Shown here: one piece after another, positions 43,064-50,068 of the stretch
Layout of the letters: the number at the start of each line of letters is the position of its first letter
Numbering within the stretch: position 1 is the first letter of the stretch
Source: Acidobacteriota bacterium
Lineage (GTDB): Bacteria; Acidobacteriota; Thermoanaerobaculia; Thermoanaerobaculales; Sulfomarinibacteraceae
Reading direction: 5' to 3'
Assembly (NCBI GenBank): GCA_022340665.1
Contig: JAJDNM010000072.1
Coordinates: 1 to 64,000, forward strand
Length of the DNA: 64,000 nucleotides
Program-made: the position numbers and the translations under genes
Notes under the pieces: generated by a model
Told to the model about the DNA's origin: nothing
What the model saw: the letters and a program-made list of their open reading frames with translations, nothing else
Databases searched by the model: none

Positions 43064-43420
43064 GTGAACCGTTCCACATTGTTCGTTGCGGCCATGCTGA
43101 TCGGAGTTCTCGCTCTGAGCTTGGCCAATGTCGCAACTGCGGCGAAGAAACCCAAGGGCGTCGACCTGTACAAGGAGTACTGCAAACCCTGCCACCTAGC
43201 CGATTCCGAACACGGCGAGTACACGCCGATGAGCCTGATTCAGGATCAATGGGATCGCTTCTTCAAAGAGGAGTACGTCGAGAGCCACTCTGGCGTACTC
43301 GACGGAAACCACGACAACAAGCCGGTTACCGAGGTCATCAGCGAAGAGGACCTCGAGATGATCAAGAAGTTCGCGATCGACCACGCGGCCGACTCCGAGC
43401 AGCCGATGACCTGCGGCTAG
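43064..43420 (+). CDS. Secreted monoheme c-type cytochrome
   Basis: The 118-residue protein has a signal peptide (about 1-26) and one heme motif, CKPCH, near residue 40. A C-terminal cysteine (MTCG) is unpaired. The heme lies early, as in class I cytochromes c, but the distal methionine cannot be assigned with certainty. It would carry electrons in the periplasm. The GTG start has TAGGAGGT upstream, and it is the first gene of a three-gene unit with the porin and the octaheme protein. Confidence 0.85.
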   Translation: MNRSTLFVAAMLIGVLALSLANVATAAKKPKGVDLYKEYCKPCHLADSEHGEYTPMSLIQDQWDRFFKEEYVESHSGVLDGNHDNKPVTEVISEEDLEMIKKFAIDHAADSEQPMTCG

Positions 43421-43447
43421 TCAGCAATAGACTCAAGGAGAATCCAG

Positions 43448-45094
43448 ATGATACGCAAGACACTCGCCTTGCTTGGCATAGCCCTGCTCTGCACGACAAC
43501 GGGGCTATTCGCACAGAGCGCCGACGCCACCCAGGAACAGATCGACGATCTCAAAGAAGAGGTCAAAGATCTCGAAAAGCGCCTGATGAAGGCCGAGCGC
43601 AAGTCCGCACTCGACCGCATCAATTTCACCGGTGATTTTCGCTTCGAGGCGAACTCGATCAGCTCGACCTACGACGATTACTTCAACGGGATGCAGTTGC
43701 AGAGGGCGCTGGTCGACACGCTCTTCTACTTCGGTGCCAACAATATGCCCCCGCAGTCACCCGAGGACGTGCAGAACTTCATCGCCCAGAACTACTCACA
43801 GTACCTCTACTACCTCAACAACGTCGTCACCTTCGACTGGCTGAAAGAGATGATGGCATCCTTCCCGCCGGAGATGCAGCAGGGCCTGATGCAGCAGCTC
43901 CTTCCCTACACATTCACCGAGGGCTATGACTACTCGAACGACATTCTCTACACCAATCGTCTTCGCCTGCAGATGCATGCCGAGGTGGCCGACAACATCG
44001 AGTTCGCCGGCCGGCTCTCGATGTACAAGGTATGGGGCGATTCGACCGGCGTCCAGACCTTCAACGGCTTCCCCACCTCGATCAACATCGACGGCACGAC
44101 CTCATCGGTCCCGAACTCCGACATCGTCCGTGTCGAACGGGCCTACTTCACCTGGTCCGGAGACAAATTCTACCTGTCGATCGGGCGCCGTCCCTCCACC
44201 GGAGGGGTGCCCCTCAACTTCCGCAACGACGAGCCGCGCGGTGGGTCGCCTCTTGGAACCTTGGTGAACTTCCAGTTCGACGGCATCACGGGCGGTTGGA
44301 AGATCAGCGACACATCGACCTTCCGCCTGTGCTATGGCGTCGGCTTCGAATCCGGCTTCGGAAACGCCCAGGAGCTCCAGCTGCCCGCCGACAGGCTCAA
44401 GGACGCTTCATTCCTCGGCTTCAACTGGGACATCTGGAACACCGAGGACCTGTTCGTTCAGACGACCGTCATGCGTGCGTTTGACGTCACCGACGGCTTC
44501 GGCGGACTCGTTGTTCTGCCGGTCGATCCGGTCACCGGCCAGGATGTCCCGGCCCCGGTCGTTCTGCGATATGCGCCGTCGGCGACCCTCGGCGACATCA
44601 GCTGGGCGAGCCTTGTCGGCGTCATTCACCCGGGACCGTTCGACGTCTTCGGAAGTTACAGCTACATGAAGTCTGATCCGACAAACGTCACATCGCCGTT
44701 CGGCGGTCTCTTCTCCGACCCCTTCGAGATGCCTGAGAAACAGAATGCATACTCGTTCTACCTGGGCGCTCGTTACACCTTGCCGAACGACGACACGAAG
44801 ATCGGACTCGAGTACAACTACGGCTCGGAGTACTGGTTCAATATGGCGGTCGCCGAGGACAGCCTCTTCGCGCCCAAGACCTCGGTTCGCGGAGACGTCT
44901 GGGAGATCTACCTCACGCATCGAATCGCGCGGCGTTTCATCCTCAAGCTCGATTACATGATGTACAACTTCGACTCCTCTGGTTCCGGCTGGCACATGGG
45001 GGCGCCCAAGGATCTGGATTCGACCCCGATCCTCGGTTTCCCCTCGCCCACCGACGCCGACCGTTTCCTGTTAGGATTGCAGGCGCGTTTTTGA
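43448..45094 (+). CDS. DUF3373-type outer-membrane porin
   Basis: The 548-residue protein has a signal peptide (TTGLFAQ end), a coiled-coil start (about 28-55) and then a beta-barrel that ends in the aromatic residue F, as outer-membrane proteins do. The alternating strands and the FSFYLGARYTLPNDDTKIGLEYNYG-like segment match the DUF3373 family, which is found with multiheme cytochromes in metal-reducing bacteria. It may let the octaheme or monoheme cytochrome pass electrons or small anions. AAGGAG lies upstream of ATG. Confidence 0.75.
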   Translation: MIRKTLALLGIALLCTTTGLFAQSADATQEQIDDLKEEVKDLEKRLMKAERKSALDRINFTGDFRFEANSISSTYDDYFNGMQLQRALVDTLFYFGANNMPPQSPEDVQNFIAQNYSQYLYYLNNVVTFDWLKEMMASFPPEMQQGLMQQLLPYTFTEGYDYSNDILYTNRLRLQMHAEVADNIEFAGRLSMYKVWGDSTGVQTFNGFPTSINIDGTTSSVPNSDIVRVERAYFTWSGDKFYLSIGRRPSTGGVPLNFRNDEPRGGSPLGTLVNFQFDGITGGWKISDTSTFRLCYGVGFESGFGNAQELQLPADRLKDASFLGFNWDIWNTEDLFVQTTVMRAFDVTDGFGGLVVLPVDPVTGQDVPAPVVLRYAPSATLGDISWASLVGVIHPGPFDVFGSYSYMKSDPTNVTSPFGGLFSDPFEMPEKQNAYSFYLGARYTLPNDDTKIGLEYNYGSEYWFNMAVAEDSLFAPKTSVRGDVWEIYLTHRIARRFILKLDYMMYNFDSSGSGWHMGAPKDLDSTPILGFPSPTDADRFLLGLQARF

Positions 45095-45130
45095 TCGATA
45101 GGCTGATCCTTTGAGCACGAGGAGGAGACA

Positions 45131-46534
45131 TTGACTCGGCGTACGATCTCTCTACTATCGCTGTTCGCCCTGGTCGCGATGCCGGCAATCGCCGCCGACT
45201 ATTCTCACAAGGAATACTTCGAACACTACGAGGGCACGAAGACCTGTCTCAACTGTCACCAGGACGAGGCGGAGACCTTCTTTCACTCCCAGCACTACCA
45301 GTGGACCGGCGAGACGCCGGCGATCGTCAACGCCGATGGCAAGAAACTCGGGAAGAAGAACACCATCAACGACTTCTGCACCAACCCGATCCCGGCCTGG
45401 ATCGGCATCACCAAGAACTCCCGCGGTGAGATCCTCTCCCAAGGTTGTTCGAAGTGCCATGCCGGGCTCGGGAAGATTCCGTCCGCGGAAATGAGTCGGG
45501 AACAGCTCGAGAACATCGACTGCCTGATCTGCCACGCATCCGGCTACAACCGGACCCTGGTTGAAAACGAGGACGGCAGCCTGGAGTGGAAGCCGATTTT
45601 GTGGAAGAACCAGGAGGGCCTCGACTCCGTCTCCAAGCGGATCACCATGCCGAAGCGGACGAGCTGCCTGCGATGCCACTCCGGTTCCGGCGGCGGTCCC
45701 AATTTCAAGCGCGGAGACATCGAGTACGCGCTGGCGGAAACCGACCGCCGGTTCGACGTGCACATGGGCACGGACGGTGGCGACATGGCATGCATGGACT
45801 GCCACGCAGGCACCAGCCACCGCATGCGAGGTCGCGGCGTGGATCTGATGGGTTCAGATTCCGCCGACCAGCTCCGATGTGCAGATGGTTCCTGCCACGA
45901 GGCAACGCCTCACCAGAAGGAGCTGCTGAACCGGCATGCCAATCGGGTCGATTGCACGACCTGCCACATTCCGGCCTTCGCCAAGGAGGACCAAACCGAC
46001 ATGGTTCGGGACTGGTCGACGCCAGCCTACGATGAGGAGAAGGACAAGCACACGCCAACCTTCACCTTTGGCAGTAATGTCACGCCCGAGATTGCCTGGT
46101 ACAACGGCTCCGTGTGGGCTCAGCTGCCAGGCGTTCCGGTGACCGAACGCGATGACGGCGTGGTCACGATGGTATTGCCACAGGGTTCGCGCTCGGATGC
46201 CAAGGCCAAGCTCCACCCGTTCAAGGTTCACCGTGGCAAGATGCCGGTGACAAAGGACGACCGCTGGATCTTGCCGATCAACGTCGAGGAGTTCTTCGCT
46301 GACGGAAACATCGACGGCGCAGTCCGTGAGGCGGCCCACGTGCTCTACGGGATCGAAAACTTCGACTACGAGTGGGTACCTGTGAAACGCTATATGGGTA
46401 TCTTCCACGAGGTCCAGCCGGCGGAGAACGCGCTTCGTTGTCTCGACTGCCACGGACCCGACGGGCGTCTCGACTGGGCCGGTCTCGGCTATGAGGGAGA
46501 TCCGCTTGCCGAGGTCTTGAGTCCCTCGCACTGA
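45131..46534 (+). CDS. Octaheme c-type cytochrome, tetrathionate reductase (Otr) family
   Basis: The 467-residue periplasmic protein has a signal peptide and eight heme motifs: seven CxxCH (CLNCH, CSKCH, CLICH, CLRCH, CMDCH, CTTCH, CLDCH) and one CX4CH (CADGSCH). The stretches FDVHMGTDGGDMACMDCH and LNRHANRVDCTTCHIPAFAK followed by DMVRDWS match octaheme tetrathionate reductases. These reduce tetrathionate and also nitrite or hydroxylamine in vitro. Here the protein is encoded with a porin and a monoheme cytochrome and may shuttle electrons in sulfur compound respiration. The TTG start follows GAGGAGGAG. Confidence 0.85.
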   Translation: MTRRTISLLSLFALVAMPAIAADYSHKEYFEHYEGTKTCLNCHQDEAETFFHSQHYQWTGETPAIVNADGKKLGKKNTINDFCTNPIPAWIGITKNSRGEILSQGCSKCHAGLGKIPSAEMSREQLENIDCLICHASGYNRTLVENEDGSLEWKPILWKNQEGLDSVSKRITMPKRTSCLRCHSGSGGGPNFKRGDIEYALAETDRRFDVHMGTDGGDMACMDCHAGTSHRMRGRGVDLMGSDSADQLRCADGSCHEATPHQKELLNRHANRVDCTTCHIPAFAKEDQTDMVRDWSTPAYDEEKDKHTPTFTFGSNVTPEIAWYNGSVWAQLPGVPVTERDDGVVTMVLPQGSRSDAKAKLHPFKVHRGKMPVTKDDRWILPINVEEFFADGNIDGAVREAAHVLYGIENFDYEWVPVKRYMGIFHEVQPAENALRCLDCHGPDGRLDWAGLGYEGDPLAEVLSPSH

Positions 46535-46922: not shown

Positions 46923-46965
46923 TTCATCTCAGATTTCTAACCAATCGATTTAAGGAGGATTGGAC

Positions 46966-47850
46966 ATGAGGAGGAGCATCCTGCTGGCCCTGGTCGGCGT
47001 GGCATGCGCCCTGGCCCTACCGGCGACGGCCGCTGACAGTCCGTGCATGGATTGTCATGATGATGTCGCCGCCGCGATGGCCAACCAGATCCACATGCGC
47101 ATCGAACCTTTCGAGGTCTACGGTCGCACGGTGGGCTGCGAGGGCTGCCACGGTGACGGTACCCAGCATATGGAAGAGGGAGATCCGGAGCTGATCCGGA
47201 CCTTCGAGAACCCGGTTGAGGACACCGCCGCGTGCCTCGATTGCCACGGTCAGAAAGAACAGGGCGCGTGGCACGCATCGACGCATGCGATGGAAAACCT
47301 GAGCTGCCTCGACTGCCATTCGATTCACCAGGCGAAGAACCCGCTGAACACCTGCAAGGACTGCCATCAGGCAGTCGTTGCCCAGTTCCAGCTGCCTTCG
47401 CACCACCCGGTACCCGAGGGCCACATGACCTGCGTCGGCTGCCACGACCCGCACGCCGCGACCGAGAGCCAGCTCAAGACCGACATGCGGCTCAACGATC
47501 TCTGCTACACCTGCCACCAGACCAAGGAAGGCCCGTTCATCTTCGAGCACGCCCCGGTGGTCGAGGATTGCAGCCTGTGCCATACACCGCACGGAGCGGT
47601 CGCTAACAATCTGCTGACGGCGAACGAACCCACCGTCTGTCTGCAGTGCCACGAGTTCCATTTCCACGCCGGTCTCAACAGCCCTGAAGGGCACATTGAC
47701 GTCGGTGGCACGGAGTTCGACAACCCGTTCGGCGAGCACAGCTTCAACGTGGCCTTCACCACCAAGTGCACCCAGTGCCACTCGCAGATCCACGGCACTG
47801 ACCTGCCGTCCCAGTCGATTCCGGGCGGCGGCCACGGAATGGTGCGGTGA
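46966..47850 (+). CDS. DmsE/MtrA-type decaheme c-type cytochrome
   Basis: The 294-residue periplasmic protein has a signal peptide (to about ATAAD) and ten CxxCH motifs (CMDCH, CEGCH, CLDCH twice, CKDCH, CVGCH, CYTCH, CSLCH, CLQCH, CTQCH). The length and spacing are those of the MtrA/DmsE/PioA family, which thread through an MtrB-type barrel to conduct electrons across the outer membrane. The barrel gene follows after ten bases. AAGGAGG lies six bases before ATG; a TTG two codons earlier is not needed. Confidence 0.92.
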   Translation: MRRSILLALVGVACALALPATAADSPCMDCHDDVAAAMANQIHMRIEPFEVYGRTVGCEGCHGDGTQHMEEGDPELIRTFENPVEDTAACLDCHGQKEQGAWHASTHAMENLSCLDCHSIHQAKNPLNTCKDCHQAVVAQFQLPSHHPVPEGHMTCVGCHDPHAATESQLKTDMRLNDLCYTCHQTKEGPFIFEHAPVVEDCSLCHTPHGAVANNLLTANEPTVCLQCHEFHFHAGLNSPEGHIDVGGTEFDNPFGEHSFNVAFTTKCTQCHSQIHGTDLPSQSIPGGGHGMVR

Positions 47851-47860
47851 GGGGGACATC

Positions 47861-50068
47861 ATGAATATCAAATCCATTTTCCAGCTCTCGCTGGTTCTGG
47901 CCCTGATCGCTATCCCCGTGACCGTTTTCGCTCAGGAGGCGTCGCAGGCCGAGCCGGGACCGTTCACACTCAACCTTGTCGGCACCGAGCCCGGATCAAT
48001 CTCCGACGCTGATGTGGAGTCGAGCGTCGAGATCGGTCTTTACAACACGAGCCTGGACGACTCGCCGGACATGGTGGCCGAGTACTACGACACCAGGTCG
48101 GGTATCACTGCCAATGCGATGATCTCGTCGCACAGTGACTCGGGCAGCCTTGAGTTTGTGGCCGCCTTCCAGAGCGCCGATACCCAGGCCGGCTCGTTCG
48201 ATTTCGACCTCGGACGCAGCTGGCGTTCGAAGAACAGATACCAGAAGTTCATCCACCGGCTCGGTCACGATCCGATGACCAACCTGGAAGCGACGTCGAC
48301 CAACGGCAAAGTGGTCTGGCACACGGACCTTCGTCCCGACCAGGAGTACCAGTTCAACTACTCGGTCCTCAGCAGCAGCAACGAGCTTCAATTCGAAGGG
48401 CTCGACGCGCTGACCATCGGTCTCGATGTGCGGGAGCAGAAGCGTCGGGGACATACCCAGGCCTACACCACCTCGCACTGCGACAACTGCCACATCTACA
48501 GCCAGGGGCACCCGATCGACGAGACGACGACCGACGCCACCGTCGACGCCAAGCTAGCGTGGAGCGGCGGCTACGCCAAGGCGGCTTTCACGACCCGAAG
48601 CCTGAAGCACGGCACGTCGTCGGTGCCGATGACCTACGACGACGCCCTCCATCCGGAGCTGCAAATTCCGGTCTTCGACAACCGCCTCCAGTACGACGAC
48701 GACGCGATTGGCGTACCGGCGGACATGTGGTCGAACATCGACAAGAACAAGACCCGGCTCGATCTGGTCTTCAACGACGTCGGTGGCTTCACGATCACCG
48801 GCAACGGCGTTTTCTCGGACACCGAGAACACCTACACCGGCCTGAAGTCCGACTATCGAGGTTACGTCGTCACCGCGGCCAAGGGCTGGAAGAACGGTTG
48901 GCGCCTGCGCTGGCGCGGTCGCGCGTACTCGATCGACAACGACGATGTCTTCGTCGACGTCAACGACCGACCCGGTGTTGCCGGGCCACTCGCCGGCCAG
49001 ACCTTTGAAGAAGTCTGGGGCGTCAACTTCGACCACACCCGGATGTCGGCGCTCAACCGCGACGCCTTCGAATCGAAAGCCGACCTCAGCTATCGCTTCG
49101 GCCGCAAGACCGGAACGTTACGTTTCATTTGGGACTATGACAGCGTCGATCGTGACAACTTCCAGGTCTTTCCCGGTAAGTTCGAGACCTCCACGAACCT
49201 CCTCGGGGCCAGTTATCGCGTCCGCCCGGCCACCGGTTGGAACTTCGAAGCCAACCTCAAGTACGCATCTGTCGACAACGCGTTCATGCTGATTGATGGC
49301 GCCTGTTCAACGCTCGTTTCCCCCAGCTATCCCAATCCGTGGAATCCGGAAACTCCGCAGTACTACCAGTTCCAAGACGCGCGCATCGCGGACACAACGG
49401 CATCGGCCTCGAGCTGGATGCGAGCCGATCTTCGCGCCGGATACTCGACCGGCAACACGACCCTCTTCGGCAAGTACATCTACTATGACGGAGACAACAA
49501 CGATGGCGACCTGACGGACTGGGCGCGCAAGAGCAGCACGGCGCTCGTTACCGTTTGGTCGGCCCCGACCGAGAACATGAATTGGTACGCTACGCTTTCC
49601 TGGATCGATTCGGATCTGGATGTACCTGCCTGCATACCAGTCTTCGATGGTTGAGCAGGCACTGTTATGGGAGGCCAGGATGGCTTCTCTCGTGACGTGC
49701 TCGACTACACCTCCGAATCCACGACCCTGATGGCCGGTGTCAAATTCCTCACCGGGAGCGAGAACGAGATCGGAATCGATCTCAGCTGGATGCAGGCCGA
49801 GGCGGGCCTCGCGCCCTTCGATCTGTCGGCTGACGACTACGTGGCGATTTCTCCGCCGATGAGCTTCGACTTCTCGACTTCACACCTCAACTCGGATCTG
49901 GACAACACCCGAATCGACGCCGAGTTGTGGGCCAAATTCTGGTTCGACTCGAAATGGTGGCTGCGTCTCCGCTATCACTACGTCGATTTCCAGGACGACG
50001 CGCCCTATCTCTACGACACCTCGGGCACATACCAGTTCGCCGCTGCAGCGATCGGACTGGTCTTCTGA
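47861..50068 (+). CDS. MtrB/PioB-family outer-membrane barrel with in-frame UGA at codon 598
   Basis: Read through the UGA, the product has 735 residues, the usual size of the family: signal peptide (1-24), a plug-like start, one CDNCH motif near residue 210, and about 26 amphipathic strands ending in a terminal F. The part before the UGA lacks the last strands and the part after it (133 residues) continues in the same frame as barrel strands (LMAGVKFLTGSENEIGIDLSW, RLRYHYVDFQDD). The residues around the stop read VPACIPVFDG-UGA-AGTVMGG. The gene is either a selenoprotein, a recently broken gene, or an assembly error. An ATG at 49667 could restart but has no strong ribosome site. It follows the decaheme gene and would be its sheath. 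Confidence 0.75.
49652..49689 (+). promoter_or_regulatory. UGA codon followed by SECIS-like hairpin
   Basis: UGA is at 49652-49654. From 49669, GGGAGGCCA pairs with UGGCUUCUC (49681-49689) in nine unbroken pairs, three of them G-U, around the triloop GGA. The loop begins 23 bases after the UGA. Bacterial SECIS hairpins lie directly behind the UGA with a small G-containing loop about 17-35 bases away, as in E. coli fdhF. The fit is good, but such hairpins also arise by chance in GC-rich genes. Confidence 0.4.

Follow-up and report, generated by a model that had tools for sequence, protein, structure and literature searches.

The window, a 64,000-nucleotide stretch of a contig from an Acidobacteriota bacterium, carries on its forward strand a gene for a barrel protein of the GSU2204 family, preceded by genes for multihaem cytochromes and a porin-like protein (Table 1). 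The barrel chain begins with an N-terminal signal peptide and ends in ...GLVF, with a C-terminal phenylalanine and a TGA terminator at positions 50066-50068. A single UGA interrupts the otherwise open frame, and the two halves share that frame, with 137 residues lying beyond the interruption. As the same gene terminates at TGA, UGA is a genuine stop codon for the barrel gene too. An earlier sequence-only reading of this DNA had described the frame as intact except for one UGA, with a normal terminal phenylalanine, and had pointed to a cysteine seven residues before the UGA; both descriptions hold, the cysteine being Cys591. Absent from that reading is a c-type haem attachment motif, CDNCH, in a long loop of the barrel. 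This CXXCH motif is kept in 44 of 45 homologue rows, and the remaining row is gapped at this site. Two histidines are also largely conserved, His132 in 41 of the 45 rows and His136 in 38.

Table 1. Features of the barrel locus, in window coordinates
Feature	Positions	Strand	Basis or remark
Small protein containing a single haem c motif (CKPCH)	43064..43420	+	Adjoins the decahaem-barrel pair in near relatives
DUF3373 outer-membrane porin-like protein	43448..45094	+	PF11853, E=7e-99
Multihaem cytochrome, octahaem tetrathionate-reductase-like	45131..46534	+	TIGR04315, 304 bits (below cut-off 375); PF11783
GSU2203-family/DmsE-MtrA-type decahaem c-type cytochrome	46960..47850	+	10 bases upstream of barrel gene
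GSU2204-family barrel gene, predicted selenoprotein	47861..50068	+	735 residues with Sec598; reading frame and NF041027 match
c-type haem attachment site of CXXCH form (CDNCH, residues 207-211) in long barrel loop	48479..48493	+	Near-invariant in homologue rows
Cys482 codon; disulfide with Cys591 predicted	49304..49306	+	Co-occurrence with Cys591
Cys591 codon, seven residues before Sec	49631..49633	+	Not conserved; co-occurs with Cys482
UGA codon, predicted to be read as selenocysteine, residue 598	49652..49654	+	Aligned with UGA in 42 distinct homologues and with TGC (Cys) in 2
Bacterial SECIS hairpin (predicted), apical part	49669..49689	+	GGGAGGCCA-GGA-UGGCUUCUC; fold, covariation and covariance model

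The barrel protein matches the NCBIfam model NF041027, named "GSU2204 family CXXCH-containing (seleno)protein" (GSU2204_Se_pt_1), with 498.8 bits (cut-off 350) over model positions 1-580 of 580, and the match stops at the residue just before the position encoded by the UGA. The gene directly upstream matches NF041028 (338.6 bits, cut-off 325) and TIGR03508 (219.6 bits, cut-off 192.2). In all 19 neighbourhoods examined, which come from many families of the phylum, the barrel gene is immediately preceded by such a decahaem gene, which encodes 10 CXXCH motifs at 18 of these loci and is truncated by a contig end at the remaining one. The genes at 43064-46534, encoding the small cytochrome, the DUF3373 porin and the octahaem-like protein, adjoin the pair only in near relatives. 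No MtrC-type gene was recognized beside the decahaem-barrel pair in the window. The Pfam family MtrB_PioB (PF11854) gave no match to the window protein even at E<10 and is matched by 5 of 15 aligned close relatives, with a best E of 3e-10. No relative of the barrel turned up when solved structures were searched by profile.

When the read-through protein was compared with all six frames of 80 related genomes, 21 of them yielded a relative of the barrel. The only stop within each full-length relative is a TGA that aligns with codon 598, and the surrounding residues in the homologues follow the motif C/T-I-P-x-x-D-G-U-A-G-x-x-x-G-Q. The search was widened to the class (149 genomes, with a codon check) and then to the phylum (396 genomes), and the final alignment comprised 45 rows representing 44 distinct genes that resolve the column. 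Codon 598 is UGA in 42 of these genes and TGC, for Cys, in 2. No residue other than Sec or Cys occupies the column among the 44 distinct genes, so that the glycine, tryptophan or arginine that the sequence-only reading had named as evidence against selenocysteine never appears. A few further genomes are scored as UGA by the phylum-wide tally of 396 genomes, which carries no column check. The UGA-bearing homologues reach down to about 30% identity, and the protein is conserved on both sides of the UGA. The two Cys forms (L085 and L086) share the local sequence VMEG-C-GG and, in a tree that omits the Sec column, make up one supported branch among the Sec genes. No relative of the barrel was found in plasmid records.

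Two relatives depart from the common gene structure. One (L072, in genome G103) has a second in-frame UGA 40 codons past the Sec codon, followed by a 39-residue tail, which stems either from misassembly or from decay of this copy. In the other (L100, at G022:C51), the barrel gene is split, with an in-frame TAA near the start, and still has the downstream TGA with an NG-x-AGG motif.

Bacterial SECIS elements are described as stem-loops immediately 3' of the UGA with a small apical loop that contains G (PMC1088965). The hairpin in the window has this form, with a 9-bp stem that includes a G-U pair and a GGA triloop starting 23 nt past the UGA. With a folding energy of -33.1 kcal/mol (z = -2.41), the 81-nt stretch was equalled in stability by 2 of 200 shuffles; taken alone, without conservation, this stability is only suggestive of a SECIS element. 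The alignment of 38 sequences is more telling, as 86% of stem cells are paired (73% in shuffles), 47 stem cells are changed on both sides (20.3 in shuffles), and the covariation score is 0.339 (0.124 in shuffles). For each of the three measures, none of 500 shuffles was as high, with the shuffles ignoring the relatedness of the sequences, and the covariation signal was lost when the partner strand was slid. Moreover, a phenylalanine codon (UUC) in the right arm goes with wobble base A of a glycine codon (GGA) in the left arm in 5 cases, and a tyrosine codon (UAC) goes with wobble base U (GGU) in 9 cases, both without exception. The wobble base follows the Phe/Tyr change, implying that a synonymous site tracks an amino acid change on the other arm and so preserves the RNA pair. 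All 38 sequences have G as the first base of the loop, and the Cys forms show a relaxed hairpin. Thus, the SECIS-like hairpin that had been noticed from the letters, with its 9-bp stem and GGA triloop, is real and supported by covariation. Because the UGA column is conserved and the stem covaries, the combination of UGA and hairpin lies far beyond chance.

Run against the whole genome, a covariance model of the element gives the window site 68.8 bits and finds no other convincing site. The second match (C46, 25.9 bits) was rejected as a further selenoprotein; it lies antisense to an unrelated ORF. Two loci of a deeper branch (L104 and L123, family f31) have a six-residue insertion in the loop after Sec and a hairpin of altered sequence, UCCGAC-GGU-GUCGGA in L104, with the stem still formed.

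An accidental UGA, arising from a nonsense mutation, a sequencing error or pseudogene decay and giving a truncated product or none, would look alike if seen once in a single metagenome-assembled genome, and some relatives are truly broken (the split barrel of G022 and the second UGA of L072), but the occurrence of UGA in the same column of 42 distinct homologues from independently assembled genomes, alongside a covarying hairpin, refutes what the sequence-only reading had held to be the main alternative and leaves it next to no probability.

Translation might instead stop at the UGA and re-initiate at the in-frame ATG that lies 12 bases past it (ORF 49667-50068), giving two polypeptides and a split barrel. 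However, the ATG at 49667 is not conserved, its place being taken in relatives by codons for Thr, Leu, Asn or others. In addition, the Cys forms encode one continuous chain, and a closed barrel would not be expected from either half by itself. We regard a two-polypeptide product as highly improbable.

The genome that contains the window encodes a tRNA-Sec (72.7 bits, with a UCA anticodon), SelB (335 bits) and SelA (495 bits). SelD was not found above the cut-off in this genome, which is about 97% complete. Since SelD is present in two genomes of the same genus (G003 and G004) and in all other UGA relatives tested, its absence probably reflects an assembly gap. The presence of sel genes, which the sequence-only reading had proposed as a check, is thus borne out by the own genome for tRNA-Sec, SelB and SelA, and for SelD only by its relatives. 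The best SelD-like match in the own genome (L041) was not counted because it falls below the cut-off; by reading of the ORF, it is an AIR-synthase/HAD-type fusion. In seven relatives (G024, G038, G050, G092, G241, G262 and G464), selD carries a single in-frame TGA, which would fit a selenophosphate synthetase that itself contains Sec; the selD genes of the window's own family are TGA-free.

A SelA match is present in 43 of the 48 genomes with the UGA form, one of these 43 (G015) showing only a fragment below the cut-off. Four of the five UGA genomes that lack a SelA match have SelB above the cut-off, and the fifth has a SelB fragment. SelA is absent from the two genomes with the Cys form (G266 and G475), and neither SelB nor SelD exceeds the cut-off there. 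The association of SelA with the UGA rather than the Cys form has p = 0.017 by Fisher's exact test, and as both Cys genomes belong to one genus, the contrast is effectively one evolutionary event.

These data also bear on a reading in which the UGA is translated as another amino acid without selenium, by general reassignment of the codon or by ordinary suppression. Such decoding would agree with a frame that is open in all relatives and with an own assembly that lacks SelD above the cut-off. However, UGA normally stops the barrel gene, and tRNA-Sec, SelB and SelA are all present. Moreover, the sole alternative residue is Cys, found in genomes without the Sec pathway, and a hairpin of SECIS type is under selection next to the codon. 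This reading consequently retains very little credibility.

Insertion of selenocysteine at residue 598, as predicted from the sequences, is therefore hardly in doubt. The conservation of UGA or Cys, the covarying SECIS element, the Sec machinery, the haem motif and the partner gene can all be read directly from the genomes. The core of the sequence-only reading, in which a UGA encodes selenocysteine ahead of a SECIS-like hairpin in an MtrB/PioB-type barrel, passes every one of that reading's own checks that was run.

The other cysteines of the chain help to place the Sec residue in its surroundings. Cys482 and Cys591 are both present in 17 of the 45 rows and both absent from the other 28, with no exception. 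Each changed five times on the tree, and the four phylogenetically independent pairs are all concordant, a number too small for significance in a sign test. This pattern probably reflects a disulfide between neighboring loops. Beyond the Sec loop, alternating hydropathy suggests five strands, with short turns at residues 631-634 and 696-698 and long loops at 646-682 and 710-722; the Sec loop itself (583-617) is likewise long, and the loop with the CXXCH motif is of the same long type. The last strand of an outer-membrane barrel usually ends in the periplasm. With the C-terminus placed there, the hydropathy pattern suggests that the Sec loop and the two long loops that follow it face outward. 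A structure prediction of the barrel from a two-row alignment (the window and L044) had a pLDDT of 26, too low for a usable model.

The sequence-only reading had further conceived of Cys591 and Sec598 as a pair in a surface loop. In its general form, this idea makes Sec598 and Cys591, or another cysteine of the chain, a redox pair that would serve as a thiol-oxidoreductase site, and the spacing of seven residues between Cys591 and Sec recurs in about 40% of homologues. However, Cys591 is missing from most homologues, and its perfect co-occurrence with Cys482 (17 rows with both, 28 with neither) is what a disulfide between these two would produce. Sec nevertheless persists in homologues that lack both cysteines, many of which have no thiol or selenol group besides those of the CXXCH motif and of Sec itself. 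A Cys/Sec redox pair within one chain is thus unlikely.

We propose that the GSU2204-family, MtrB/PioB-like gene would be translated into a full-length outer-membrane beta-barrel, with UGA-598 decoded as Sec by tRNA-Sec and SelB under the direction of the hairpin just downstream. The barrel and the upstream decahaem MtrA/DmsE-type cytochrome would together carry electrons across the outer membrane as a conduit that has no MtrC-type partner, similar to PioAB, which is a two-part conduit (PMC6831781). Electrons would pass via the decahaem protein inside the barrel. The c-type haem site of the barrel and the Sec residue, each in a long loop expected to face outward, would then lie near the outer end of the conduit. 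At this end, Sec may be a redox or metal-binding group that meets an external acceptor, or it may be a ligand or neighbor of the barrel haem; it could bind or reduce the acceptor or a metal, or tune or ligate the haem. We infer the topology of the barrel, its complex with the cytochrome and the transfer of electrons from the gene content and the sequence patterns described above. We hold the explanation as a whole, a Sec-containing barrel in an MtrAB/PioAB-like conduit, to be very probable. The two-part conduit of barrel and decahaem cytochrome, argued by analogy, appears likely, and an action of Sec at the outer end of the conduit is speculative.

Among the possible roles, Sec could serve as an axial haem ligand, either to the CXXCH haem of the barrel or to the last haem of the decahaem partner, and not be catalytic at all. 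Sec and the CXXCH motif are among the few invariant features of the protein, their loops are likely on the same side, and the only replacement tolerated at the Sec position is Cys. However, the conserved His132 and His136 provide alternative ligands, and we know of no precedent for the ligation of a c-type haem by Sec, which we count against this role. Overall, a haem-ligand function is possible but doubtful, and most of the remaining probability goes to another redox or metal-binding function. It is likewise no more than a tentative suggestion, and one we do not favor, that Sec at the outer mouth works in extracellular electron transfer and functionally takes the place of an extracellular multihaem cytochrome. 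If true, Sec as a haem ligand or as a terminal redox or metal site would be a new role of selenium in respiration. Annotation reports genes of this kind as truncated if the UGA goes unrecognized.

The sequence-only reading knew of no described selenoprotein in the MtrB family; one is in fact listed, by NF041027 and by two reviews that place the family among selenoproteins as an outer-membrane barrel of MtrB/PioB type and do not give the Sec motif (PMC13188914, PMC9312934). The family name is absent from the main text of the GOS paper that the reviews cite, and the original description was not located. The selenoprotein family is hence already known as a predicted one, and the window gene is a well-supported new member of it. 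What is new here is the distribution in Acidobacteriota, the Cys variants, the invariant 10-haem MtrA/DmsE-type partner directly upstream and the correction concerning Cys591. What had been an entry in a table, naming a predicted selenoprotein barrel without its Sec motif, thereby becomes a case that can be tested. Hematite or magnetite raises the expression of GSU2203 and GSU2204 jointly in Geobacter sulfurreducens, by 1.5- to 2.7-fold (PMC4070692).

Comparing the window barrel with known systems, the closest likeness is to NF041027 itself, which shares the CXXCH motif, the Sec residue and the adjacent decahaem partner of the GSU2203 family. Whereas the model covers only the part before Sec, our analysis adds the 137-residue tail, the SECIS element and the Cys variants of Acidobacteriota. 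ExtKL of Geobacter (NF040886) is likewise predicted to be a selenoprotein and belongs to a system for extracellular electron transfer; however, it is a cytochrome and not a barrel, and no sequence relation to the window barrel was seen. MtrB and MtrE of Shewanella and PioB of Rhodopseudomonas are, like the window protein, large outer-membrane barrels whose genes adjoin a decahaem MtrA-type gene, whereas the window barrel differs from them in its own haem c motif, its Sec residue and the lack of a PF11854 match. To our knowledge, neither Sec nor a CXXCH motif has been reported for PioB. PioAB nevertheless resembles the arrangement proposed for the window, in which the genes point to a conduit that would likewise consist of two parts and do without an extracellular multihaem cytochrome.
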